The notes beneath the pieces are model-generated. The model was not told the origin of the DNA. It was given only the letters and a program-made list of their open reading frames with translations, and made no database searches. Positions 8,177 through 61,851 of a DNA stretch of 64,000 nucleotides are shown piece by piece. The first letter of the stretch is position 1. Each line of letters begins with the position of its first letter. The DNA comes from a virus. The position numbers were made by a program, and so were the translations under genes. Location of the stretch: positions 28,604 to 92,603 of the IMG/VR virus record IMGVR_UViG_3300033141_004852. One strand, given 5' to 3'.

Positions 8177-8619
8177 GGCGCATGTTCTCCCTGTCGCGGA
8201 ACCACGCGAATATACACATACAACCCCACTTGCTCGTCCTTATCGGGGTAGAATTGCCACACTTCCGCCTGCACACATACTCGCGGATATTGAAGCCACT
8301 CAGACACCTGAGTCGCCACCCCCCGCTCCCACTGATCCCGCGCATCCTCCCCACAGTTCGGACAATGAGAATACTCGTAATCGGGGAATGTCTGCTCGCA
8401 AACATGACACAGCGCGCGGTTCGGAAGGTAGCCGACAAACTGCCACCCATCACCTACCCAAGCATGGACTTGCACTGCATGGGAATCATGGGAGTTTTCC
8501 GGTTCGGGGACCAACTGCAACACATGCGGCCACATCCGCCGAAATCTCCCGAGGGCCCCCTGTACCTCCGGGCGGCGAGTCCCAACCAAGTGAGTATACC
8601 AGAAACGGAGGATTTTCAT
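8131..8619 (-). CDS. HIRAN-domain protein with inserted zinc finger
   Basis: 162 residues. VPEPENSHDSHAVQVHAW...FVGYLPNRAL is the HIRAN signature (E-P-x-N-x-x-D-x-x-A-V-x-V...GYLP), a domain that binds single-stranded 3' DNA ends and damaged DNA in HLTF/Rad5-type proteins. A CxxC...CxxC finger (CHVCEQ...CPNCG) follows directly after the GYLP strand. Stand-alone HIRAN proteins are uncommon in phages; a role in DNA-end handling is inferred. It overlaps the downstream gene by 46 bases and the sigma gene by 4. Confidence 0.75.
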   Translation of the reverse strand: MKILRFWYTHLVGTRRPEVQGALGRFRRMWPHVLQLVPEPENSHDSHAVQVHAWVGDGWQFVGYLPNRALCHVCEQTFPDYEYSHCPNCGEDARDQWERGVATQVSEWLQYPRVCVQAEVWQFYPDKDEQVGLYVYIRVVPRQGEHAPCIATNSSTPMAEIS

Positions 8620-9395
8620 GGCGACGCTCCCGCTACTGCATACTTCGTCTGATCATCGTCACCCATACACCAACGCCGCACCCGCTCCACCGACCGGCGT
8701 ATCCGCGCAGCAACCGTAGAAGCCGGGAGTCGATACCCAATAGCCAACTCCCGATACGACTGCTCATCCACATAGTATCCCCACACCAACTCACGATCAA
8801 GTGGTGGGAGGCGTTGCAGTCCATCCATCACCGCCACGCGACGAAGAATCCGATCCTCGAAACGCTCCCCCGTCTCCGAAGTCACCACATCCTGCAAGGT
8901 AGCGGGGGTTCCACTCTCACCACTATCCAGTGGTAAGTCAAGGCTCGTGACATTGGTGCAGATGTACCAGATCTGCGAGAGGCGCTCCACCATCTCCCCC
9001 GTAATTTGCTTCCCCAATACGGTGGCCTGCACATCTACCGCAATTTCCTCCGGGGTGGGTTGTCGGCGGAGCTGATCCGCCAACCGCTCCTGTGAGCGGT
9101 GAATCTTTGACATGATCTCCTGAATCCACGCAGGGCGCCGGATAAGGCGTCCCCGATCCCGGAGGTAATGCTGCATCCCACTGCGGCCGCGGTTCACCAA
9201 CCAGGTCACGATAGACGACTTACTCGGGTCGAACCACGCCATCCCACTAAGTGCCGACACCCACCCGGCCTGCACAAGATCTGCCCACTCATCCCGCGGC
9301 GCGCCCCACTTCCTCGCCAGATACCAAAGCGACTGCGTCACCTGGGCGATAACCAGAGGATTCAGATCCGACAGCGGAGAATCATCGGTAGCCAT
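8616..9395 (-). CDS. Sigma-70 family RNA polymerase sigma factor
   Basis: About 259 residues from ATG 9395, 6 bases after the upstream stop (GTG 9407 and TTG 9404 also in frame). Region 2: EWADLVQAGWVSAL...FDPSKSSIVTWL...GMQHYLRDRGRLIRRPAW (promoter -10 recognition). Region 3: a helix block with QPTPEEIAVDV. Region 4: LPPLDRELVWGYYVDEQSYRELA...STVAARIRRSVERVRRW, a clear HTH. It resembles the SigB/SigF/FliA group. It should give phage promoters preference on host polymerase, probably for late genes. Confidence 0.88.
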   Translation of the reverse strand: MATDDSPLSDLNPLVIAQVTQSLWYLARKWGAPRDEWADLVQAGWVSALSGMAWFDPSKSSIVTWLVNRGRSGMQHYLRDRGRLIRRPAWIQEIMSKIHRSQERLADQLRRQPTPEEIAVDVQATVLGKQITGEMVERLSQIWYICTNVTSLDLPLDSGESGTPATLQDVVTSETGERFEDRILRRVAVMDGLQRLPPLDRELVWGYYVDEQSYRELAIGYRLPASTVAARIRRSVERVRRWCMGDDDQTKYAVAGASP

Positions 9396-9400
9396 GCTAC

Positions 9401-9763
9401 TCAACACCCCTTACCATGTCGCAAAGGTCTGCACTCGTTGACACCCATTTTCCGCTCCACCGCCGCGCCCATATCCATCCCAACCGCTGCCGTGAGATCG
9501 AGGAGGCGAATCAACGTGTCGGCGAGTTCCTCCTCGATAGCATGGCGCGCAGCCTCATCTCGACGAGGCAGCCAGAGTCGGTAGGCTTCCATCGCCTCCC
9601 CCAATTCCGTGACAATCAACATGAGTTTCTCGGGGAAGTTATGCCAGCCGGTAGTGAATCCCTTCCTCTGCCGCCAGTCGGTGATATATTCCGAAAGCGA
9701 GCGTAATGCTCGCCGCACCCGTCGCCAGTCAGCCTGTGTCAACCTCGTACCATTCTCCATCAT
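9401..9763 (-). CDS. MazG-like NTP pyrophosphohydrolase
   Basis: 120 residues. EKLMLIVTELGEAMEAYR and EEELADTLIRLLDL are the ExxE...ExxD metal-binding helices of the all-alpha NTP-PPase (MazG/dUTPase-like) superfamily, which hydrolyses non-canonical or excess NTPs. Phage MazG proteins lower (p)ppGpp or clean dNTP pools. ATG ATG start at 9763 with GGAG upstream. Confidence 0.8.
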   Translation of the reverse strand: MMENGTRLTQADWRRVRRALRSLSEYITDWRQRKGFTTGWHNFPEKLMLIVTELGEAMEAYRLWLPRRDEAARHAIEEELADTLIRLLDLTAAVGMDMGAAVERKMGVNECRPLRHGKGC

Positions 9764-15968: not shown

Positions 15969-16256
15969 TCATAGCACGTCGTCCTCATCCACGATCTCGT
16001 AGTCTTCCCCCACGCACTCCACCCCCAACGATTCCGTCAATTCGGGGTCCCGCAACATAGCGTCCACATGCCAGGGCCAATCCGGCGACTTCGCAGGATG
16101 ATCATCCGGTAGCCGGACCATATCCCCACTCGTCCCCTCGAAGTCCTCCAGCGGCGGATGGTGGACACCCCATTTGATCCCATAGCCGGTAAGACCGTGG
16201 AACACCACCGTCCCCACACGCCTATCCAGTAGTCGTACAAGCGTACCGATCTCCAT
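15969..16256 (-). CDS. Hypothetical protein
   Basis: 95 residues, ATG after GAGGAAAG. N-terminus EIGTLVRLLDRRVGTVVFHGLTGYGIKW looks like a small SH3/Tudor-like beta barrel; acidic C-terminus. Overlaps the TOPRIM gene end by one base. Function unknown. Confidence 0.65.
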   Translation of the reverse strand: MEIGTLVRLLDRRVGTVVFHGLTGYGIKWGVHHPPLEDFEGTSGDMVRLPDDHPAKSPDWPWHVDAMLRDPELTESLGVECVGEDYEIVDEDDVL

Positions 16257-17074
16257 TATCCACTTTCCTCCTCAGCAATCTCCACCAAGCGTTGGCGGTC
16301 CCTGCACTCCTGCTCCTGGGCTTCCTCCCAAGCACCCTCATCGGTGATATGCTCACGCACTGAATCCTCAATCAATTTCTCCAACACATCCGGTGGCAGA
16401 GCATCCAACTCCACCGTGTCCTCACCGTGCGCCGCGAGGAAGCCCGCTGTCCGACTATCAGTATCCTTCGGCGGCGTCGGAGGAAGTTGATGACGCTCAA
16501 TCTGCTCGGGGAGCAGCGCTACCCGCTTCAGCGATACCCGCCATCCCCACGTTACCCGCAATTCCTCCTCGATAGAGCGGTTGATGTCAACTCCCGAGGG
16601 GTCCCAATCCCCGAAGTAGAGGATATTCCGCACCCGCCGATCCTTCGCCGCCACCAAGGTGCTCACCGAAGGATAGCCTCGACAAATCTGCAACGTCACT
16701 TGGAGGCGGTCTACCACCGGCAGGAACACTGTCGCCAGCGCCTGCTTCTCCAACCATACCTCTGGAGGTGAGTCCTGCTCCGCCCAATAATCGCGGCGGT
16801 AGCCATTCACCAACCCTCGCAAGAAATCACCCAAATCCGACCAACCACCGTGGTGCTGGGGCATCCGCGTCAAATCGGTGAAGGCATGAGGGGAAAGTTT
16901 CCCGTTTTTCCGCCACCGGGTCAGATGCGCGACGAGACGCTTGTACGAGCGCAGCGAGTTCGGAATGACTAGCCCTGCCACAAGTCGATAATAAAGTTGT
17001 CGGACGGTAATCGCCGAACCGTATTCGGCCAATACACACCGACACGCTCGCAAGAGATCGTCAGTCTTACTCAT
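16256..17074 (-). CDS. Spo11/topoisomerase VI subunit A-like TOPRIM protein
   Basis: 272 residues from ATG 17074 (GGAGTGG upstream). TVRQLYYRLV (24-32) matches the winged-helix catalytic-tyrosine motif (RDIYY) of Spo11/TopVI-A; VWLEKQALATVF (E109) matches the TOPRIM 'vEKeavF' motif; GDWDPSGVDI (D156-x-D158-P-x-G) matches the DxDPxG metal site. Topoisomerase VI-A and Spo11 make double-strand breaks through a tyrosyl link. This protein is shorter (TopVI-A is about 370 residues) and no B subunit is seen nearby. It may cut or nick DNA in recombination or relax it with a host partner; activity is inferred. Confidence 0.75.
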   Translation of the reverse strand: MSKTDDLLRACRCVLAEYGSAITVRQLYYRLVAGLVIPNSLRSYKRLVAHLTRWRKNGKLSPHAFTDLTRMPQHHGGWSDLGDFLRGLVNGYRRDYWAEQDSPPEVWLEKQALATVFLPVVDRLQVTLQICRGYPSVSTLVAAKDRRVRNILYFGDWDPSGVDINRSIEEELRVTWGWRVSLKRVALLPEQIERHQLPPTPPKDTDSRTAGFLAAHGEDTVELDALPPDVLEKLIEDSVREHITDEGAWEEAQEQECRDRQRLVEIAEEESG

Positions 17075-17418
17075 TCTACCACTCCATCCTGTGCCAAATC
17101 TGCCTCGGCATCCACGTCCCCCGGATAATAATCCGGGAGAAGAAAGACAGTACCCCACCACTCCCCATTATGCACCCGACAATCCCCGCATTGTCGCGGA
17201 TGGGCACACTCAACCCCACACTCCCCCGACCCCTCCTTCCAAGTGAAGAGGTACATGTTAGCCGTGAAGAAAACGGTGCTACAACACCGCTCACACCACG
17301 CCCATCGTACCTCATACGATAACGAATAACTCCTGACAACGCCTTGCTTCCGCGGGTGACCAAATAGGCGACACAACAACCTACCCCATGCCAACGACAA
17401 CCGCTGCCAGAATCTCAT
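17071..17418 (-). CDS. Cysteine-rich zinc-binding protein
   Basis: 115 residues from ATG 17418 (GAAGGAG upstream, start overlapping the previous stop). FGHPRKQ then WCERCCSTVFF and CGVECAHPRQCGDC give up to eight Cys/His ligands; an N-terminal amphipathic helix (WQRLSLAWGRLLCRLFG) precedes them. Unknown role. Confidence 0.6.
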   Translation of the reverse strand: MRFWQRLSLAWGRLLCRLFGHPRKQGVVRSYSLSYEVRWAWCERCCSTVFFTANMYLFTWKEGSGECGVECAHPRQCGDCRVHNGEWWGTVFLLPDYYPGDVDAEADLAQDGVVE

Positions 17419-17939
17419 CAACTCAACTCCTTCATCAGACGACGTAGCACGGGCCTCAGCAGCCGCCAACTCGTTACATGGAAAATCAACGGAGCAGGCT
17501 CTCCCAGACGCTCCTGCACCGCCTCCGCGATCTCAAGTTGGTCTTCCAAATACAGACACGGCAATCGGCTAGATACCCTGGGGATCACAGTCAGACAAGA
17601 TACCTTGTGCTCCACAGCGTCTAACCACGGAGGGCGCATACACAAATCACCATATGGAACATCATGCTCGCGCAACCACTCGACAGTCAGGTGCATAAAA
17701 CGGGCTTCCCGAGCCGTCACCAAGCGAATATACCACCCTGCCTCGTGAAACTCCCGCAACAACGCGAGCGCATCCGGGTCCGGCAGTGCTCGCCGGAGTA
17801 GCCGCTCCGCCAACCGCGTCGCGACGAGGAACTTCCACACCGCGTCTCCGAGGCGCCGGTGTCCACGTAGGAACGACAACTCCTGCCTCGTCAGCGTACC
17901 ATCGATGTCGCAGACCACCACCGGCCGCGTATCAGTCAT
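17418..17939 (-). CDS. HAD-superfamily phosphatase / polynucleotide phosphatase-like
   Basis: 173 residues from ATG 17939 (AAAGGAG upstream). VVVCDIDGTLT is the DxDGT nucleophile motif, IRLVTAREARF supplies the motif II Thr, K near 112 and YLEDQ the motif III/IV acidic region. It resembles the phosphatase half of T4 polynucleotide kinase and related phage HAD proteins acting on nucleotides or nucleic-acid ends. No kinase domain is fused. Confidence 0.75.
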   Translation of the reverse strand: MTDTRPVVVCDIDGTLTRQELSFLRGHRRLGDAVWKFLVATRLAERLLRRALPDPDALALLREFHEAGWYIRLVTAREARFMHLTVEWLREHDVPYGDLCMRPPWLDAVEHKVSCLTVIPRVSSRLPCLYLEDQLEIAEAVQERLGEPAPLIFHVTSWRLLRPVLRRLMKELS

Positions 17940-34481: not shown

Positions 34482-34675
34482 AACAGGGAGCCTGCACGAT
34501 CTGCCACTCTTTCCCCGTTCCTACCCGCACCTGCCCCGGCTGCGGCAGGATAGTGGGGCAGGAATGCTTCGCCGACGCGGAGCGATGCCGACTCTGTGAC
34601 GAATGCTCAGAGCACCAAGAGGAGGTAACAAACAATGGCGAAACCCGCCCTGGACTGCACCGTAACCTACGCTGA
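34478..34675 (+). CDS. Zinc cross-brace mini-protein
   Basis: 65 residues from ATG 34478 (ATGA overlap). CTICHSF...CPGCGRIVGQECF...CRLCDEC has the same C-spacing as 33798 and 35831. Its end overlaps the clamp gene by 41 bases, so translation may be coupled. Confidence 0.65.
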   Translation: MKQGACTICHSFPVPTRTCPGCGRIVGQECFADAERCRLCDECSEHQEEVTNNGETRPGLHRNLR

Positions 34676-35819
34676 TCTGAACAACGGCGCCGCCGTATCG
34701 CGCGTGATCGGTCGCGGTCGCTACGCCCTGCCGATCTGTGAAAATGTGGCGATCCGAACAGAAGGGCAGAAAATCCGGTGTTGGGCGTACCCCGCCGGAC
34801 CCGCTGCTGCTTGGGACTTCAACGCGCGGGTAGCAGTCAGTGGGGGAATCACCGTCCCCGCCCGGACCCTCAAACGCGTGCTCAAAGCACTGAAAACGAA
34901 GGCGCGGGAACCCCTGCGGCTCCAAGCACCGGACCCCTCTCACTTGACTATCACCGCGGGTAACACCCAAGTCAGCCTCCAGGGGCTCCCGATAGAAGAA
35001 TACCCGCCCCTCCCCCACATCAAAGACCCCTCCACCTACCAAGTCACGGTGGGGATTCTCCGTGAGGCATCCACCCGCCTACTCCCCCTCGCCAAAGCGG
35101 CGGTGGAGGAGAAGTGGCAGGGGATTCACGTCATCCCCACCGACACAGACGCCGTGGGCTTCTGGGCCACAGACAGATTCCGAGTAACGCACATACCACT
35201 CACCCCCACCGCGCAGACGGGGATGCAGCATATTCTAATCCCTACCGAGGCCCTAGAACACTTCCTCGCCCTCAGCCGCCGACTCGACGGCGAGGAACCC
35301 GCATACATCCACGCAGGACAGAGTGCAGAGAGAGACGATCCCGCACCGCGGGTAACACTCACCTGTGGCCCCCTAACTGTTACTGCAGGCTCCTTCACCC
35401 CCAAAGATCCCGGCTTCGCAGCCTGGACGGGGAAGCAGGTGCTGAAACCGCCATATGCCGTAGACCGAGAAGAACTCGCTGACGCTATCAGTACCCTTGC
35501 CGGAATCGCCCAGGATGTGGAGGGGAAGCGCGTCGAACTCCACTTCAACCCCCCGAACCTACGCCTAGGGACAGGAAACGGCGAAACAGGGCGCGCGGAG
35601 GTAACTATCCCCCTGAAGAACATCCCCAACGCTGAAACCAACCCCGAAACTTGTCGCCATGATATACATCATGGCTTTCTCCACGACGCCGTCGCATCCG
35701 TCGGCGGGAATATCGTCGCCATTTACCCGCCCGGAGACAAGTGGGGACCTCTTCTGATCCAATCAGTAGAGGACTCACTTCCTATGCAAGTATGGATTCA
35801 GCCGCTCAATCCAGAATAG
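34635..35819 (+). CDS. dnaN: DNA polymerase sliding clamp (beta subunit type)
   Basis: 394 residues, GAGGAGG upstream. Three repeated clamp domains: residues about 1-125, 126-255 and 256-394. VPARTLKRVLKAL, LTITAGNTQVSLQGLPIEEYPPLP, GFWATDRFRVTHIPL and the C-terminal LLIQSVEDSLPMQVWIQPL match the conserved DnaN blocks (T-D-R-x-R, M-P-hydrophobic end). Encircles DNA and holds the polymerase. A bacterial-type beta clamp in a phage is less common than a gp45-type trimer. Confidence 0.88.
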   Translation: MAKPALDCTVTYADLNNGAAVSRVIGRGRYALPICENVAIRTEGQKIRCWAYPAGPAAAWDFNARVAVSGGITVPARTLKRVLKALKTKAREPLRLQAPDPSHLTITAGNTQVSLQGLPIEEYPPLPHIKDPSTYQVTVGILREASTRLLPLAKAAVEEKWQGIHVIPTDTDAVGFWATDRFRVTHIPLTPTAQTGMQHILIPTEALEHFLALSRRLDGEEPAYIHAGQSAERDDPAPRVTLTCGPLTVTAGSFTPKDPGFAAWTGKQVLKPPYAVDREELADAISTLAGIAQDVEGKRVELHFNPPNLRLGTGNGETGRAEVTIPLKNIPNAETNPETCRHDIHHGFLHDAVASVGGNIVAIYPPGDKWGPLLIQSVEDSLPMQVWIQPLNPE

Positions 35820-36177: not shown

Positions 36178-36705
36178 ATGAAGACAGAGATACGCCGCAT
36201 TCACAGTAGTCACATCGCTGACTACGCCGCCTTCCTGGCGATCTGCCTACGCGACAGGGTATTCGTAGGCAGAACCTGCCTCCGCACTCTCCTGCCAATG
36301 CAAGTGCAGACACTCCTGAGTCACCTCTTCTCCGCAGACGCCCAATACTACCTCGTCTTGACCGGACGGGCACGCGGGCGCTACCCTACAGCATTCCTCA
36401 TCCTAGACCCCCAGCCGTGGGATACCGTGCAAATCTACTACTTCTCCCACCCGCGGCGGCGCCGCCAAACATTCTGGAGCGACCTCTGGCCACAGGTAAC
36501 AGCGGCCGCCGTCGAAATGGGCGCCTTCCGCCTGGAGATCGAAGTCAGTAGTGCCCACGAGAGTTTCCTGGAGGCGCTGAAAGCACGCCAATCGGAGACG
36601 GGCCTCCGCCTGGAGGGAATCCGACGCCTTGCCGTCCTCGATGCAGACGGTAACCGTCGCGACCTCTACCTCTTCGGGAAAGTCCTCGGAGATCACGGAG
36701 GGTAA
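36178..36705 (+). CDS. GNAT acetyltransferase-like protein
   Basis: 175 residues. IRRIHSSHIADYAAFL, YYLVLTGRARGRYPTAFLILDP, and FRLEIEVSSAHESFLEALK...YLFGKVL follow the GNAT strand/helix order (N-terminal helix pair, acceptor strands, C-terminal 'a..fyeklGF' block replaced by a degenerate version). The Q/RxxGxG/A loop is not clear, so activity is doubtful. Translation is probably controlled by the RNA element just upstream. Confidence 0.5.
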   Translation: MKTEIRRIHSSHIADYAAFLAICLRDRVFVGRTCLRTLLPMQVQTLLSHLFSADAQYYLVLTGRARGRYPTAFLILDPQPWDTVQIYYFSHPRRRRQTFWSDLWPQVTAAAVEMGAFRLEIEVSSAHESFLEALKARQSETGLRLEGIRRLAVLDADGNRRDLYLFGKVLGDHGG

Positions 36706-36709
36706 CAAC

Positions 36710-37741
36710 ATGTACCCCGAACTCGACCAACTCCTCCTACCGGAGTTTCAAGCGTACATCCGCGCACTCAAAGGGCACCGGAGCCCACAAACTGTGCGGA
36801 TATACCGGAGCCGCCTGCGGTGGCTCTCCCGCAAACTACAGGAGCGGGGGCTGAAGCCGTTGGAGGTAACGGAGGCAGACCTCACGAGACTCCGGGAGGA
36901 TACCTTCGACGAGATCACCCCCTCCATGTGGAATCAAACACTCCACGCGGTAACGCGCTTCTATGAAGAGGCCGTCCGCCGGGGGGAGATCGCCCAATCT
37001 CCACTCATTCCCCGCCTATTCCGGCAAGAAACCCCCAAACCACCCAGGGAGCCTCTGACACAGGAGGTCCTCGATGGGATACTCGCCGCCGCGCGGAAGG
37101 AGGGGATGCCCTGGCCTCTGGTGATCCAGGTCATGGCATTCGCCGGCCTCCGCCGCGACGAAGTATGCCGCCTGCGGCGCCAGCACCTTCTCATCAGTCA
37201 ATATCGGGAAGACCACGAGGACCCAAGCACCGCCTATAGTCTGTGGGTGCTCGGTAAGGGTAACAAAGGCCGCTCGGTGGCAATCCACCGCAGTCTCTAC
37301 GAGGCTATAGAGGCATATCTAGCATGGCGGACACACGAGATGGACGATCACGATGAGCACATGTTCGTCTACTATCACCCCGGCTCGTGGCGAGCAACGG
37401 GGAAACCGCGCCACCCCCGCTCGAAAGCGGAGCCGCACCCCCTGACTGGCGACCTGATCTGGAGACGCGTGCGGGAGTTTGCCCGCGACACCGCGAACCC
37501 GCGGGTAACGCCCCATGATCTCCGTGCCCACTTCGCCACGCGGGCACTCATGCGCGGTGTACCCCCTAGCCTAGTGAAATTGTGGATGGGGCATAGCCAC
37601 GAGCGCACCACGATGGGCTACTTCCGCCCCGCCGGGGATACCATCGCCGCCATTCCCGGCATCATCCTGGCGGATGTAGACCTAGAAAGGTTGGAGAGAG
37701 AATGCAGAGAACTCCTGACTCCTCGCACACACCACGAGTAG
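36710..37741 (+). CDS. Tyrosine recombinase (XerC/D-like integrase)
   Basis: 343 residues from ATG 36710 (GGAGGG upstream). SAM-like N-terminal domain (FQAYIRALKGHRSPQTVRIYRSRLRWL), then the catalytic domain with Arg in AGLRRDEVCRL (near 146), Lys in GKGNKGRS, H-x-x-R in HDLRAHFATRAL (near 270), His/Trp in WMGHSHERTT and the nucleophile Tyr near 303 (MGYF). It could integrate the phage or resolve genome multimers. No attachment site was recognised beside it. Confidence 0.88.
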   Translation: MYPELDQLLLPEFQAYIRALKGHRSPQTVRIYRSRLRWLSRKLQERGLKPLEVTEADLTRLREDTFDEITPSMWNQTLHAVTRFYEEAVRRGEIAQSPLIPRLFRQETPKPPREPLTQEVLDGILAAARKEGMPWPLVIQVMAFAGLRRDEVCRLRRQHLLISQYREDHEDPSTAYSLWVLGKGNKGRSVAIHRSLYEAIEAYLAWRTHEMDDHDEHMFVYYHPGSWRATGKPRHPRSKAEPHPLTGDLIWRRVREFARDTANPRVTPHDLRAHFATRALMRGVPPSLVKLWMGHSHERTTMGYFRPAGDTIAAIPGIILADVDLERLERECRELLTPRTHHE

Positions 37742-50880: not shown

Positions 50881-51984
50881 ATGCGAAAATCATCGACGCA
50901 GAAGAAGTTTCTTGGGAATCCCATCAATCTACTAATGGACGAAGAGATTGAGGGTCCCCGCGTCATCAGCACGGGGAACTTTGATCTCGACTACCGCATC
51001 TTGACTATCGGTGGTGTCCCGCGAGGCATCATTACCGAGTTCTTCGGCGCCGAGCAGTCGGGGAAGAGTACCCTTGCTCTGAGTGTCATCGCCAACGCAC
51101 AGCGTGCCGGGCTCCGATGTGCTCTGTTGGAGACGGAGACCTTCGTTCGCACCCCCGAGGGGAAGAAGTGGGCCAAGGCGCTCGGGGTAAACCTAGCCCC
51201 CGAGTGGTTGACGTACTGGAACGAAGTCGGACCGGCGGAGTCATTGCTGCGGGGACTCCTCGATGTGATGAAGTCGGGAGAATACGGGGTCGTGGTGTTG
51301 GATTCGCTACCCTTCCTGCGAACTCAGAGTCAAATGGACGCCTATGGGGGAAGAGACGCCGACAGTCAAGGCCGAATAGCAGACCTCGCCAATACTCTTA
51401 CTTTCTTCGCTCCTGCATTGGCGTTGGAAGCCTACAACAACCAAGTGGCATTCATCGTGACGAATCAAGTGCGGGTTAGCATCACACCCGCGTCGCCGAT
51501 GGAGGCGCGCATGAGCGCGATGACAAAGGCGGCGAGGGGTACAATCCGCACCCCCGGTGGGCGAGCCTGGCGCCACGCGTGCTCTCTGCGGTTGTTCTTC
51601 CAACGCACGGGGGCACTCTTCGAGGGCGACGAACTCGTGGGTACGCAGGCGGAGGCTCTGCTTGTGAAATCCCGAGTCTCACCCCCACTCCGGCGAACGG
51701 GGAAGGATTGCCCGGAGATTCGCTTCTACTTCGATGGGCGGGTAATGGACGAGCCCGCGACTTTGTTGGATTACGCGCTCGCATACCAGCTGATTCAGCA
51801 GAAAGGTGCACATTACTTCCTCCCCGACGGCCAGCGTTTCCACGGGCGAGATGCACTCCGCGCGGCCTGCGACAACCCGACGTTCTTAGATTGGCTACGA
51901 GAGGCGACGTTGGCAATTGCCCGCGCGAACCCCAGTGGGGAAATGCAAGCCGTAGCCGCCGAGGAAGATCAGGTAGTGACATGA
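50881..51984 (+). CDS. RecA/UvsX-like recombinase
   Basis: 367 residues, AAAGGGG upstream. FFGAEQSGKSTLAL (P-loop near 54-66), LLETETF (Walker A-linked Glu), YGVVVLDSLPFL (Walker B near 138), VTNQVRVSI with loop 2 region, then TPGGRAWRHACSLRL. Lacks the N-terminal polymerisation helix of long RecA, and has a C-terminal extension. Catalyses strand exchange. Confidence 0.85.
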   Translation: MRKSSTQKKFLGNPINLLMDEEIEGPRVISTGNFDLDYRILTIGGVPRGIITEFFGAEQSGKSTLALSVIANAQRAGLRCALLETETFVRTPEGKKWAKALGVNLAPEWLTYWNEVGPAESLLRGLLDVMKSGEYGVVVLDSLPFLRTQSQMDAYGGRDADSQGRIADLANTLTFFAPALALEAYNNQVAFIVTNQVRVSITPASPMEARMSAMTKAARGTIRTPGGRAWRHACSLRLFFQRTGALFEGDELVGTQAEALLVKSRVSPPLRRTGKDCPEIRFYFDGRVMDEPATLLDYALAYQLIQQKGAHYFLPDGQRFHGRDALRAACDNPTFLDWLREATLAIARANPSGEMQAVAAEEDQVVT

Positions 51985-52727
51985 GTACGCCGCCGGAGTT
52001 TCTCCAGGATATAGTCCAGCGTGGAATCACGTATCGGGAAGTCATCCTTACCTTGCCCGAGGCACACGAGGATGGGCAGCGACTCCTCGCTTTCTTCCAC
52101 ACGCGGGGAATCACCTCCGACCAGATTTCCCGCTGGGGGTTGGGAATGCTTCCCCCCGAGTGGGCAGGTGAGCACTGTGCTGCCCTCAACCAACGACTTC
52201 TGATTCCCATCCGGGACGCTCACTACAACCTAGTGAGTGTCAGCGGACGGGCACTTTTCCCCGCCCAGGAACCGAAGTTCTGGCACTTCCCCTTCAACAA
52301 GCGTCATGTACTGTGGGGGTTGGGTCACCTAGCAACGCGCATCGAGGAGATGAACTTCGCCTTCCTCGTCGAGAGTTACTTCGACGTACTTGCACTGGAA
52401 CGATGTGGGTTCCCCGCGGTGGCGTTCATGGGGAGTTCACTCGCGATTGACCAGGCTGCACTGTTGGCGCGATATACCCAGCGGGTCTGTTACATCGCCC
52501 ACCGCGACAAAGCCGACCCCGGGGTTGTTGAGCGTCAAGTCCTCCACCCTCTGCGTAGAATGGGGATGAAGGCGGTGTGGGTGACGGTATCCCACGGGTC
52601 GGACTTCGACGAATACTACCGACTAGGCGGGCACGAGCACGCGGTAGCCAGCGCCCATGAAGCCTTTCGGTTACTCCAACCGCGTGCACCCACCCCGTGG
52701 AAACATCGTGTGAGAAAATATGCCTAA
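51981..52727 (+). CDS. DnaG-type primase core (TOPRIM), metal site altered
   Basis: 248 residues from ATG 51981 (ATGA overlap with recA). LNQRLLIPIRDAHYNLVSVSGRAL...PKFWHFPF matches the DnaG core; FLVESYFDVLALERCGFPAVAFMGSS matches TOPRIM (VEGYFD...), keeping the Glu. The DGD metal motif reads HRD (IAHRDKADPG), so its first Asp is missing. Zinc domain is encoded at 43545. It could still be active, or be a helicase/primer partner. Confidence 0.75.
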   Translation: MSTPPEFLQDIVQRGITYREVILTLPEAHEDGQRLLAFFHTRGITSDQISRWGLGMLPPEWAGEHCAALNQRLLIPIRDAHYNLVSVSGRALFPAQEPKFWHFPFNKRHVLWGLGHLATRIEEMNFAFLVESYFDVLALERCGFPAVAFMGSSLAIDQAALLARYTQRVCYIAHRDKADPGVVERQVLHPLRRMGMKAVWVTVSHGSDFDEYYRLGGHEHAVASAHEAFRLLQPRAPTPWKHRVRKYA

Positions 52728-53706
52728 GATCACCCGTATCGAGCTCACGAATGTGCAGGCACACGCCCACACGACGCTGGAGCCAGCGCCGGGGCTTACG
52801 TATCTGGTCGGCCCCACCAACGTGGGCAAGTCCGCTATCGTACGTGCTCTCCGCTGGTGTCTGGATGGGGGTGATGGATGGCTTGTCCTCCGACGCCGAG
52901 GACAGGAGGAAATCCAGGTCACGGTAGTCTTCGACAACGGATGGACGATTACCAGGCGGCGGGCGGAGTATGAAAACGTCTACGAGGTCACGGAGCCCAA
53001 CGGTAAGAAACACGTATTCGACAAAGTGGGGCGGGAAGTACCGGAGTTAGTCAGGAAGGTCACCGGCTTCCGCTCTGTGGTGTTGGATCGGGAGCCGTAT
53101 TTCCTGAATATCCTCCGCCAGCATGATCCCCTGTTCCTCATTACGGAGAGTCCCGTAAGTGTTCACCGGCAACTTTCGCGGTTAGTGGACACGGATATTC
53201 TGGAGGAGGCTAGCCGCGTTGCTCAATCCGACGCGAGAAAAGCCGATACGGAAATCCGCTATCTCTCCAATGAGATCGCCAAGTGCAGAGACCGCCTGAA
53301 GGACCTCGCGTGGCTAGACGCCACGGAGGAGATACTACCTACGCTGGAGACACACCTTGCGAAGCTGAAGACTCTGACCGCGCAGGCAACGGAGATGGAC
53401 CGGCTGCTGACGCGCCTGGTCCTCTATCAGCAACGTCAGCAAGCCTACGATGTGGATAGGCAGCGTGCGGGGAACATCGACGCCGCTGCCGCCGAGCGAA
53501 GCCTGCAACAGTGGGAACAGGCTACACAGCGTTTGCAGCAGATTCTCATCTACCAACAGCGAGCACAGACCATCCAACAACGGCAGGCGGCGACCTCCCG
53601 CGAGATCGCTAATATACAAGCACGTGCAGAGCAAGCGCGCGCCCTCCTAGCCCAAGTGCGGACTTGTCCTACCTGCGGACAGCCTGTCTCGCCGGAGGCA
53701 TTGTGA
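52720..53706 (+). CDS. SbcC/Rad50 N-terminal half, ending at the zinc hook
   Basis: 328 residues, 8-base overlap with the primase core. GPTNVGKSA (P-loop 31-39), Q/R-rich first lobe, then one long coiled-coil arm (about 180-318) and CPTCGQP at 319-325 just before the stop. In SbcC the CxxC hook sits mid-arm between two coiled coils; here translation stops there. The other half is at 54914. Confidence 0.8.
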   Translation: MPKITRIELTNVQAHAHTTLEPAPGLTYLVGPTNVGKSAIVRALRWCLDGGDGWLVLRRRGQEEIQVTVVFDNGWTITRRRAEYENVYEVTEPNGKKHVFDKVGREVPELVRKVTGFRSVVLDREPYFLNILRQHDPLFLITESPVSVHRQLSRLVDTDILEEASRVAQSDARKADTEIRYLSNEIAKCRDRLKDLAWLDATEEILPTLETHLAKLKTLTAQATEMDRLLTRLVLYQQRQQAYDVDRQRAGNIDAAAAERSLQQWEQATQRLQQILIYQQRAQTIQQRQAATSREIANIQARAEQARALLAQVRTCPTCGQPVSPEAL

Positions 53707-54677
53707 TGGCGAAGTTCATCTACATCACGGATATACACGCCCGCCTCCGAGCCCCCGCCGGCCGCAGTGATCCCGACTTCCTGGAGACAGTAGACCAGAA
53801 ACTCTGGAGCATTCTCTCCTGGGGGATGCAAAATGGCGTCGACGCCGTGCTCTGTGGGGGAGACATCACCGACCATCCACTACCAGGATACCGGGTGCTG
53901 GCGATGCTCGCGAAGTTGATTCACTACAGCGAGATCCCCTGGTACGTTTGCCTCGGACAGCATGATGTCTTCGGCTACAACGTAGAGCAGCACGAGACCA
54001 TCGCCGCCCGTTTGTTGGAGACCACGATGCCGAAGCACTTTCACATTCTCCCCGACGGTTGGGCGGGGGAGGTACTTGATGATTTTGGGGTCCGTATCGC
54101 GGGGCTGCATGTCCGCTCCGACGGCCCCGACAAACTCCCCGAGGCTCTGAAATCGCTAGCGGGGAAGGCCGACATCGTGATAGCACATGTGATGGTGACG
54201 CCCAAATCCGCCATCTACCACCATATCGCGCTCGCGGACGTGCCCGCGGCGGTTCCCCTGCTTCTCCTGGGGGATTACCATCCAGGGTTCTACTGGCGGG
54301 GACAAATGGAGAATGGGCAACCGGCGACGATCCTCAACCCGGGGGCACTACTGCGTATGTCTCGAAGCCCCAGCGATATGGAGCGGGAACCCCGGTTCGT
54401 AGTTATCGATACCGACCATCTCGACCAGCCGCAGTTCATGCGGCCGGCGTTTCGGACAGACATTTGGCAAGCCGATCCCGACACGACGGCGTTGGAGAAG
54501 CAACGGTTACAGCAGTTCGTGACCGAACTCTCCACCTTGAGCACTACCGCCCCCAGTTATCAGGGGGTGGAGGAACTCCTACGCGTGGCGGCGAAGATGG
54601 TAGATGCTCGCCAGGAGGTAGTGGATTACGCGCTACAACTAACGAGAAAATGTCTTCAGGAGGCAGGTCGTGAGTAA
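53706..54677 (+). CDS. SbcD/Mre11-like nuclease
   Basis: 323 residues from ATG 53706 (one-base overlap). Phosphoesterase motifs: ITDIHAR (near 8), CGGDITD (near 50), LGQHDVF (near 84), IAHVMV (near 161), LGDYHPG (near 195). The third motif is GQHD where the family has GN(H)[DE], so the Asn metal ligand is changed to Gln. C-terminal capping region helical. Forms the nuclease of the SbcCD complex. Confidence 0.82.
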   Translation: MAKFIYITDIHARLRAPAGRSDPDFLETVDQKLWSILSWGMQNGVDAVLCGGDITDHPLPGYRVLAMLAKLIHYSEIPWYVCLGQHDVFGYNVEQHETIAARLLETTMPKHFHILPDGWAGEVLDDFGVRIAGLHVRSDGPDKLPEALKSLAGKADIVIAHVMVTPKSAIYHHIALADVPAAVPLLLLGDYHPGFYWRGQMENGQPATILNPGALLRMSRSPSDMEREPRFVVIDTDHLDQPQFMRPAFRTDIWQADPDTTALEKQRLQQFVTELSTLSTTAPSYQGVEELLRVAAKMVDARQEVVDYALQLTRKCLQEAGRE

Positions 54678-58142: not shown

Positions 58143-59035
58143 TGCGTATCATCATGCGGTCGCACCATTTCCCTCTACCCCAGGATAGCATCCCCCACGG
58201 GGGAGTGCAGGAGCATATCTTCCAGGTCACGCGGGTTCTCCGCGACCGCGGGCACACCGTCGAGTGGTACTACCCCCACCAACACCCCCATACTCCCGGC
58301 GATCTGGAGGTGACCCACGACTACTCCGCCTGGGATTGGAAGCAGCATGACGCCCCGCGGACCCTGGTAGTATTCCACGGATGGGAGGGGAAGAGTCCCC
58401 CCGACCCAGCGGTCGTTGCCGAGCGGCAACAGATTTCCCACGCGGCAGATGAGACCATCGCCGTCGGGGAGTTCATTCCCCGTTGGTATGGGGGAAAGAT
58501 CGACCACGTCATCTGGGGTGGGGTAGAAATCCCCGAGAGGATTCCCACACCTATACCCGGTCGCGCTGTATGGGTGGGGAGATTGGCGCCGGATACGGGG
58601 GCTGTGTTGCTTATCCACCACGCGGTCTCCGCTGGATGGAAAGTCGATGTCCTCGGCGATGGCCCCCACGCGGAGAGCATCCGCACCTACCCCAACGTGA
58701 AGATGTGGGGATTTGTCCCCCAAGGCCTCGTGAGGGATGTAGTAGGTGAATCCACCATCGTCCTCGCGGCCGGATACTTGAGCATCCTCACTGGCTATGC
58801 CTACCAACGCCCTGTTTTCAGCATCATCCCCCCGGGGAATGAGGTCAAACGCGACTATCTGGAGCTGATGCCCCACCCGCCCACGATTATCGAGGGGCCA
58901 CAGTTGCTGGAGGAAATACTCCATACACAGTCATACACAACACCCTCGACTGAGGAGGCTATCCAACAGCGCTTCCAGTGGGCAACGCAACAAACCTGGG
59001 ATGCCGTTGCTGATCTATACGAGGATGCTGTCTAG
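58142..59035 (+). CDS. Glycosyltransferase (GT-B, family 4-like)
   Basis: 297 residues, overlap with the previous stop. PHGGVQEHIFQVTRVLRDRGHTVEWY, AVWVGRLAPDTG and AAGYLSILTGYAYQRPVFS outline a short GT4 fold. Confidence 0.75.
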   Translation: MRIIMRSHHFPLPQDSIPHGGVQEHIFQVTRVLRDRGHTVEWYYPHQHPHTPGDLEVTHDYSAWDWKQHDAPRTLVVFHGWEGKSPPDPAVVAERQQISHAADETIAVGEFIPRWYGGKIDHVIWGGVEIPERIPTPIPGRAVWVGRLAPDTGAVLLIHHAVSAGWKVDVLGDGPHAESIRTYPNVKMWGFVPQGLVRDVVGESTIVLAAGYLSILTGYAYQRPVFSIIPPGNEVKRDYLELMPHPPTIIEGPQLLEEILHTQSYTTPSTEEAIQQRFQWATQQTWDAVADLYEDAV

Positions 59036-59036
59036 G

Positions 59037-60020
59037 ATGCGTATCGCAACCGTCAACCGCCCCCCGGAGCCGCTGGGGGGAGATGAGATACAACGACGAT
59101 ACCTAGCGCGGGAACTCGCGGCGTTGGGAGTCGAGGTCGTACACGCTCACACAGGAGCGGCAATCACCCGACTACCCTGCGTTGATCTCATTCACACCTA
59201 CAACCTCCATCTTCCGACGACGGAGCTCGCGGCGCGAGAAGCCCGCCACCGGCGGATTCCCCTCGTCATCTCCCCCATTGTCAACCCGGGAATCCATTAT
59301 CCGGCATGGGCACTGGATGTAGTGCGCCAATCGCGGTTGATCCTCGGGAACTCCCAGCAGACAGCAACCCACTTACAACGCGTTCTGGGATGTCCTGGCG
59401 AGGAAATTGCCAGCAAGTGCGTATGGCTTCCCGTGGGAATAGACCACGAATGGCTCCAGGAAACAGAGGGGTCGATCAACGACATCGCCACCCCTATTCC
59501 CATCATTTGCGTTGGGCGCCTGGAACCTCGCAAGCGCCAGCTGGCACTGTTGGAGACGATCCAGCGTAAGGATCCAGACATCCTCGGAGAATATGGGTTG
59601 GTATTCGTCGGACGATGCTCACCCACGGAGAAGAAGCAGTATCTCCATTTCCCCAATGTAGTCTTGGCCGGAGAGCGTTCTCACGAGGATGTGCGTTGGC
59701 TTCTCCACAACGCGTGGGTACATGTTCTCCCTACACAGTATGACAACCCCGGGCTAGTCAACCTCGAAGCCGCCGTCTGTGGATGTGAGGTTGTCACGAC
59801 GGACTTACCGGACATCCGCGACTACTTAGGCAGCTACCCCTACTATGTTCAGCATTTGGAGGAGTTCGTCCCCAAGATCCGCGAGGCACTGGAAGCCTCC
59901 CGCCGTCGACAGGGAGATACAACTCCCCCACCTATGGCGAAGATGCTCGCCCGACGATTTTCCTGGGAAAACGTGGCTGCTCGTCTGGTAGAATACTATG
60001 AGAGGGCGTTAGGACAATGA
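59037..60020 (+). CDS. Glycosyltransferase family 4
   Basis: 327 residues from ATG 59037. GGDEIQRRYLARELAALGVEV, CVGRLEPRKRQLALLETI, HVLPTQYDNPGLVNLEAAVCGCEVVTTD (E-x7-E region) are typical. Confidence 0.8.
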   Translation: MRIATVNRPPEPLGGDEIQRRYLARELAALGVEVVHAHTGAAITRLPCVDLIHTYNLHLPTTELAAREARHRRIPLVISPIVNPGIHYPAWALDVVRQSRLILGNSQQTATHLQRVLGCPGEEIASKCVWLPVGIDHEWLQETEGSINDIATPIPIICVGRLEPRKRQLALLETIQRKDPDILGEYGLVFVGRCSPTEKKQYLHFPNVVLAGERSHEDVRWLLHNAWVHVLPTQYDNPGLVNLEAAVCGCEVVTTDLPDIRDYLGSYPYYVQHLEEFVPKIREALEASRRRQGDTTPPPMAKMLARRFSWENVAARLVEYYERALGQ

Positions 60021-60952
60021 CACCCAAACCCAATGTACTCATTATCGTCTTCGATGCTCTGCGGGGAGATGTGAGGATACCCGCTCTCCAGCAACTGGCG
60101 AAACAGGGGTGTACTTTCCCCCATGCACTCTCCGCCGGGACCGCGACCTGCTTCTCCGTAGCGGGGATGCTCTTCGGGGGCAAGGATCTCCTCGTCTATC
60201 ACCAGGGTAAGTGGAAGATGGCGCCGCAGGCACTCTCCTTAGCGGAGGTTCTGCGTGTATCCCACGAAACCGCATTCATCACCGGGAACTTCCTGCTCTC
60301 GAAGTTCGAGATGCTCCACCGCGGCTTCGACTACGTTCACACCCCTAAGCTCACGGGGATATTCTGTCCCGAGGAGGGGGCTCAGGTATTAGAGCACGCT
60401 CGTACCTGGAAGAAGCAAGTAGACCCCCGGGAACCGTGGTTCTGTTACCTGCACTTCTTCGAGCCACACGCTCCCTACACGACGCCGCTACCAGATATTG
60501 AGCCGCCTACGGAACGAGTGGCAGGGGGTTGGACACAAGATGACATGACCCCCGAGGAATATACATATCTCCACCAGCGATACACGCATCATGCGCAAGT
60601 TACGGTGCCGCCTTTGCTGGAGCAGGCACTCACCCTCGCCGACGAGAATACTATCATCGTCGTTACCTCCGACCACGGACAAGCCTTCGGGGAGAAGGGG
60701 ATGATCGAGCACGTCAACGCCCACGGCCCCAACATTCAGGAGGGCGTGCCTCGCTGGGATCTCCTCTGGCAGATCCCCGCTGTTCGCTCTGTGCCCCTGA
60801 TTATCGTAGGCCCGGGCATTTCCCCCGCGGTTGACCTCACCAGTGTCTGCACCGCGTGGTTGGGTGCCTACATCACCGCGTATCTCGGACAGCCACCCTC
60901 GGAGGACGACCTCGTAGCAGAGAAACTACGTGACCTGGGGTACATTGCATGA
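60017..60952 (+). CDS. Sulfatase/alkaline-phosphatase-fold enzyme
   Basis: 311 residues, ATGA overlap. NVLIIVFDALRGD (metal Asp), TATCFSVAGMLFGG (nucleophile region; Thr or Cys), FLHFFEPHAPY-like block and VVTSDHGQAFGEKG (metal D-H). The C-x-P-S-R sulfatase signature is absent, so a phosphotransferase or phosphonate-type activity is more likely. Set in a glycan cassette. Confidence 0.75.
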   Translation: MTPKPNVLIIVFDALRGDVRIPALQQLAKQGCTFPHALSAGTATCFSVAGMLFGGKDLLVYHQGKWKMAPQALSLAEVLRVSHETAFITGNFLLSKFEMLHRGFDYVHTPKLTGIFCPEEGAQVLEHARTWKKQVDPREPWFCYLHFFEPHAPYTTPLPDIEPPTERVAGGWTQDDMTPEEYTYLHQRYTHHAQVTVPPLLEQALTLADENTIIVVTSDHGQAFGEKGMIEHVNAHGPNIQEGVPRWDLLWQIPAVRSVPLIIVGPGISPAVDLTSVCTAWLGAYITAYLGQPPSEDDLVAEKLRDLGYIA

Positions 60953-61851
60953 TTGACTCCTACGAGCCCCGTGTCGGAGCGCAGATACTCATCCATGCAC
61001 CGGAAGGCGATGTCGGTCGACTCACTACGCAGGCAGCCGCCGTCGCTGTGCGGAGCCTGTTCGAGAGTGACATCCCCTCAACCTTACTTCGCGTTGTCGT
61101 CGTTGACAACGGGAGCACACACCTCACATTCCACGAGTGGCTACAGGAGAAAGTGTATCCCAACCCGCAGGTGCGCGTCGTGCGTATTGAGTGCACATCC
61201 TTCAGCCGAGGACGAAATGTGGGGTATCGCCGATTGCTGGAATGGGACGAGTATCCTTGGGATATAGCGCTGGAGTTCGACGTGGACAACATCTTCCCCA
61301 AAGTCTGGTTTGAGCCCCTCCGGCGATACTTGGCAACCCACCCCCAAGTGGGACTTCTCTCCCCCGGCACGGTCATGTCCGATCACTGGGAACCCTGCGA
61401 AGTCCCCACGGCGGTAATCGACTACGAGACTATGCACTACGATGAAATGCGCCGCCGAGTCAATAAAGTATGCGCTATCTGCCGCGCCGCATTCGGTGGG
61501 AAGCGGGGGGTAGTCCGCCACCCCCCGGTATTGAAACGCCGCGTTTGTTTGGAGGACATCGGACTCTACGACGAAGGCTACGAGGGTGGAGGATGGGAAG
61601 ATTGGGACGAGGTAATGCGTGCTCACAAAGGCGGGTGGCTTACCCGTACTTGCCTTGATAGCTTCGTCTTCCACTGGACAGCGTGGTCGCATGTGCTCAA
61701 CAATGGCTGGGTGGGAGAAAATCCCGTGCGGCTGTACCAGCGCAACCAGCGGCGCTTCTTCTCCAAGTTCCCCGATAGTCACGACTTCTACCGCGAGTAC
61801 CTCCGAAACCGCGGACAACTCTATCATCCATCAGCGAGGTTGGAGATATGA
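60949..61851 (+). CDS. Glycosyltransferase family 2
   Basis: 300 residues, ATGA overlap. LLRVVVVDNGSTHLTFHEWL, ALEFDVDNIFPKVWFEP (DxD) and CLEDIGLYDEGYEGGGWEDWDEVMRAH are GT2 blocks (EDxD-type). Confidence 0.8.
   Translation: MIDSYEPRVGAQILIHAPEGDVGRLTTQAAAVAVRSLFESDIPSTLLRVVVVDNGSTHLTFHEWLQEKVYPNPQVRVVRIECTSFSRGRNVGYRRLLEWDEYPWDIALEFDVDNIFPKVWFEPLRRYLATHPQVGLLSPGTVMSDHWEPCEVPTAVIDYETMHYDEMRRRVNKVCAICRAAFGGKRGVVRHPPVLKRRVCLEDIGLYDEGYEGGGWEDWDEVMRAHKGGWLTRTCLDSFVFHWTAWSHVLNNGWVGENPVRLYQRNQRRFFSKFPDSHDFYREYLRNRGQLYHPSARLEI

Follow-up and report, generated by a model that had tools for sequence, protein, structure and literature searches.

A divergent Mini-A protein encoded on a virus contig: a Topo VI-A/Spo11-like protein with conserved predicted active site and clasp residues and no detectable B subunit

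Background

Spo11 functions with degenerate B-like partners that are poorly recognisable from sequence, and Topoisomerase VIII, which belongs to the type IIB group found on mobile elements, carries an ATPase part. Mini-A, a type IIB-like group of mobile elements as well, differs from Topoisomerase VIII in having no ATPase part. The group was named by Takahashi et al. 2020 among the type IIB topoisomerase-like proteins and is presented in reviews as comprising truncated Top6A homologues of archaeal viruses and bacteriophages of unknown function (PMC8185306, PMC7614492), the exemplar drawn being that of Pseudomonas phage NP1 (PMC7614492 Fig. 4). These sources describe no Mini-A biochemistry. Mini-A counts among a handful of type IIB-like groups that have no known activity; it is common, and its active site is fully conserved. 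Knowing what a Top6A core does without an ATPase would bear directly on how Spo11 came to leave breaks unsealed. In Topo VI the cleavage reaction is restrained by a "clasp" between R102 and E342, and the mutant E342Q cuts more (PMC13040014).

In this work we have analyzed a protein encoded in a 64,000-nucleotide stretch (the window) of a 92.6-kb contig from an uncultivated phage, which a sequence-only reading had described as a phage Spo11/TopVI-A-like protein without a B subunit. This is an already named kind of protein, Mini-A, because the published exemplar from NP1 matches it directly, and the window protein is a divergent further member. It is highly probable (roughly 0.85) that the protein is a Mini-A member with a predicted competence for tyrosine-mediated DNA cleavage. 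What is added here is that, of the two adjacent tyrosines, it is the second that is conserved, that counterparts of the R-E clasp are kept and that Mini-A has no linked partner gene.

Results and discussion

Location of the Mini-A gene and its motifs

The gene occupies positions 16256-17074 on the minus strand, from the ATG at 17074 to the TAA at 16256, as one open frame, and the plus strand of the same segment is interrupted by stops. Its translation is 272 amino acids, in agreement with the earlier count of about 100 fewer than Topo VI-A. The upstream gene (17071-17469, minus strand) overlaps it by ATGA and the downstream one (15969-16256, minus strand) by TAATG; the two neighbours serve as operon context only. 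Because of these overlaps the start codon is considered well placed, and the gene lies in a tight operon.

The motif VRQLYYR (residues 24-30, 16985-17005, minus strand) contains R25, the equivalent of the clasp arginine, and Y29 (codon 16988-16990, minus strand), the predicted catalytic tyrosine. VWLEKQA (residues 106-112, 16739-16759, minus strand) provides the predicted metal-site residue E109 and is aligned with the EKxA of Top6A, and DWDPSG (residues 156-161, 16592-16609, minus strand), aligned with D-x-D-P-x-G of Top6A, provides the predicted metal-site residues D156 and D158. The glutamate of ELDA (16400-16411, minus strand), E222, corresponds to the glutamate that forms the clasp in Top6A, which in M. 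mazei is E342.

Family membership and relatives

PHROG 6247, "DNA topoisomerase", matches residues 16-269 of the window protein (6e-61). The NP1 protein shows 37% identity over 97% of it (tblastn, E 7e-39), and a plasmid protein annotated "Topo Mini-A" 31% identity. Matches were obtained in 70 phage records (tblastn), every one below 60% identity, from Pseudomonas, Salmonella, Xanthomonas, Flavobacterium, Roseobacter, Microbacterium and other phages, and in 47 plasmid records, mainly from Streptomyces. Relatives were also present in at least 594 stretches of IMG/VR viral contigs (alignment-based scan) and in 313 stretches of one-genome-per-species data for bacteria and archaea. In our own tree the window protein falls among phage, plasmid and genome homologues; the nearest ones are encoded on Nealsonbacteria-type MAG contigs (45-46% identity), their grouping with the window protein having a support of only 0.29.

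With NP1 and PHROG 6247 the window protein shares coding by a mobile element, the truncated Top6A form, the motifs and the absence of a B subunit. Its N-terminus is shorter by about 11 residues than that of most relatives, and it carries W at the H/F position of GD[H/F]DPSG, as do 3 of 181 aligned sequences.

The Pfam families TP6A_N and TOP6A-Spo11_Toprim gave no match in the window protein up to E 10. Among 17 Mini-A members checked none matched either family above the curated cut-off; weak matches to each occurred in two members (best E 0.009 and 0.033). PDB sequence searches, with the single sequence and with a profile, returned nothing useful.

Conservation of the active site and the clasp

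Conservation was assessed in 181 aligned sequences, made up of the window protein and 180 relatives encoded by phages, by plasmids and in genomes. The residues R25, Y29, Y44, D67, R70, E109, G133, D156, D158, P159, G161, D206, G217 and E222 are invariant in all 181. The PHROG 6247 match, together with this identity of residues, shows that the three motifs are not due to chance. The first tyrosine of the pair, Y28, is replaced by F, H or W in 15 of the 181 sequences, and on conservation the second one, Y29, is predicted to be catalytic. The spacing of R102 and Y106 in M. mazei Top6A (PMC13040014) agrees with that of R25 and Y29.

When an archaeal Top6A set collected by family search was compared with the Mini-A profile, RQLYY was placed on RxxYY, EK on EK and DxDPSG on DxDPxG, in the Spo11/TopVI-A order noted earlier from the sequence alone for VRQLYYR, VWLEKQA and DWDPSG. 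ELDA was matched with KxExxA, a conserved motif of Top6A, in the global alignment. The local hhalign score was 40.0 with a 17-sequence Top6A profile and 29.8, confined to the TOPRIM region, with a 37-sequence profile; the 20 shuffled-column controls, which reached 25.0 at most, were run with the latter profile. In the global hhalign alignment with the 17-sequence set E222 falls on the glutamate that is invariant in the K-x-E motif of Top6A and that, by residue offset, corresponds to E342; R25 aligns with R102.

As judged from these alignments, putative counterparts of the R-E clasp, R25 and E222, are conserved in every Mini-A sampled. Their invariance suggests that cleavage is controlled, and probably reversible, rather than that of a bare nuclease, and the conserved clasp makes Mini-A function a simple mutant question.

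Predicted fold

The AlphaFold model of the window protein (68 sequences) has a mean pLDDT of 93.7 and contains an N-terminal winged helix and a TOPRIM domain, the combination whose absence the sequence-only reading had named as a refutation. With the whole model Foldseek returned no significant match to Topo VI, either among PDB structures or among viral models; the structural case rests on VIA re-ranking. The top VIA row for the whole model was Topo VI-A 1d3y (Z 12.3, 152 residues, rmsd 5.3), followed by 9o0g of Topo VI (Z 11.9), MksG 8b7f (Z 11.8) and JetD 7til (Z 11.2), with Spo11 8uru lower in the list (Z 9.5). Topo VI holoenzymes and Spo11 core complexes are among the close matches, and all these whole-model matches span residues 76-243, the TOPRIM part. 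The TOPRIM domain itself is placed at residues about 93-243 (16346-16798, minus strand).

The N-terminal 95 residues modelled alone form a winged helix (pLDDT 87.5) that covers residues 1-68 (16871-17074, minus strand). Foldseek ranked Topo VI-A 1d3y first for this domain, with an E-value of 2.6 that is not significant alone; the VIA scores were Z 7.5 over 65 residues for Topo VI-A and Z 6.4 for Spo11 8uru, and generic winged helices, e.g. Zur, score like Topo VI-A. The winged-helix assignment is firm, and a special kinship of this predicted domain with Topo VI-A draws on the fold, the spacing of the motifs and the order of the domains taken together.

Topo VI-A is thus the best structural match, with the winged helix bearing Arg and Tyr, the TOPRIM bearing E, D and D, and the clasp Glu; Mini-A differs from it in its shorter chain, the missing B subunit and the weak sequence similarity. 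Spo11, which shares the two domains, is more distant than Topo VI-A. Since the Topo VI tyrosine acts with the TOPRIM of the partner subunit, the two being about 10 Å apart before cleavage (PMC13040014), nearness of the YY pair to the DxD site within one chain, proposed earlier as a refutation test, is not a valid one.

The close similarity of the TOPRIM part to JetD and MksG, which nearly match the Topo VI-A score there, together with weak but recurring Pfam DUF2399 matches in 7 of the 17 members, would fit a TOPRIM nuclease whose hydrolysis of DNA makes no use of the tyrosine, as in the Wadjet/MksBEFG nucleases. We hold this to be improbable, as R25 and Y29 of the winged helix are fixed while the adjacent Y28 drifts, the N-terminal domain is nearest to the Topo VI-A winged helix in Foldseek, and the neighbours examined, namely a methyltransferase, a HAD phosphatase, DUF5131 and unknowns, included no recognisable SMC genes of a JetABC/MksBEF operon.

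B subunit and partner genes

The earlier statement that no GHKL gene is present in the window holds across the whole 92.6-kb contig. HMM searches for HATPase_c (PF02518) and for the transducer domain of Topo VI-B (PF09239) gave no match in any of 20 elements, namely the contig and 19 complete relatives (16 phages, 3 plasmids), and were positive in control genomes. The contig is classed as "linear", so the virus genome may be incomplete, and for this virus the absence of a B subunit applies at the level of the contig. No partner gene was conserved within 6 kb of Mini-A in 82 non-redundant loci, the commonest neighbour family being a helicase in 10 of the 82 and never adjacent.

A full Topo VI-like enzyme that borrows its GHKL subunit from the host, or uses an unrecognised phage B subunit, has a precedent in the hard-to-spot partners of Spo11. 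It is nevertheless an unlikely explanation given the lack of a conserved neighbour and of GHKL in all 20 elements, an 8.8-kb plasmid included; nor was a partner resembling Top6BL or Rec102 found. Because there is neither a B subunit nor a shared neighbour, Mini-A appears to work alone or with host factors.

Proposed mechanism

A Mini-A that cleaves through its tyrosine would probably act as a homodimer gripping duplex DNA that is bent or crossing. In either half, one subunit would contribute Y29, which attacks a backbone phosphate held by Mg2+ at E109, D156 and D158 of the other subunit. Both strands would thereby be cut in a staggered fashion, leaving 5'-phosphotyrosyl ends. Such a break would be held and normally resealed, because the R25-E222 pair would restrain the winged helix in the way known for R102-E342 of Topo VI. 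ATP-driven strand passage is not expected because Mini-A has no GHKL subunit; the ATP-independent outcome would be either DNA relaxed or unlinked by uncoupled passage, or programmed breaks feeding phage recombination and replication. A role specifically in phage DNA replication or recombination is put forward tentatively, at somewhat less than an even chance.

The virus contig

Genes for a UvsX/RecA-like recombinase (50881-51984), a DnaG-type primase, a Rad50/SbcC-like ATPase (52720-53706) and an Mre11/SbcD-like phosphoesterase (53664-54677) are consecutive on the plus strand between 50881 and 54677. Their presence would suit a dedicated recombination initiator whose breaks are processed by the phage Mre11/Rad50-like and RecA-like proteins in a meiosis-like manner. 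This seems unlikely, as an SbcD-like gene occurs in only 2 of the 19 other complete Mini-A elements and RecA in none, and the RecA/SbcCD-like genes lie about 34 kb from Mini-A on the opposite strand. Also improbable is the fuller version, a B-independent, clasp-regulated break maker that starts the Mre11/Rad50/RecA-like pathway of this phage as a viral counterpart of meiotic breaks. A general link of Mini-A with RecA and SbcCD was rejected, 17 of the 19 complete elements being without the SbcD-like gene and all 19 without RecA of that family. Since most of them lack both, the tyrosine-mediated cleavage proposed above is not built on these genes.

The contig also encodes a tape-measure protein, a DNA polymerase I-type polymerase, a DnaB-like helicase and an RNA polymerase sigma-factor-like protein (8616-9407, minus strand; PHROG 351, 1.1e-15). 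A beta sliding clamp-like gene is located at 34635-35819 on the plus strand (PF00712, 2.5e-6); such clamps are unusual in phages. The tyrosine integrase-like gene (36629-37741, plus strand; PHROG 1, 4.6e-36) indicates that the virus may be temperate. Glycosyltransferase and sulfatase-fold genes stand in series at 59001-61851 on the plus strand and may serve to modify the DNA or the virion with sugars.

Plasmid-borne Mini-A

In Streptomyces and relatives Mini-A lies close to plasmid ends more often than expected for a uniform distribution (KS p 0.003 over 23 records, uncorrected for kinship); linear topology is confirmed in only some of these records. In two cases a "helicase associated domain protein" is encoded near the very end. 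A link of plasmid Mini-A with telomere biology is possible. The archaeal plasmid LC711082.1, of 8776 bp, carries Mini-A among mostly unknown genes and offers a minimal system for its function.
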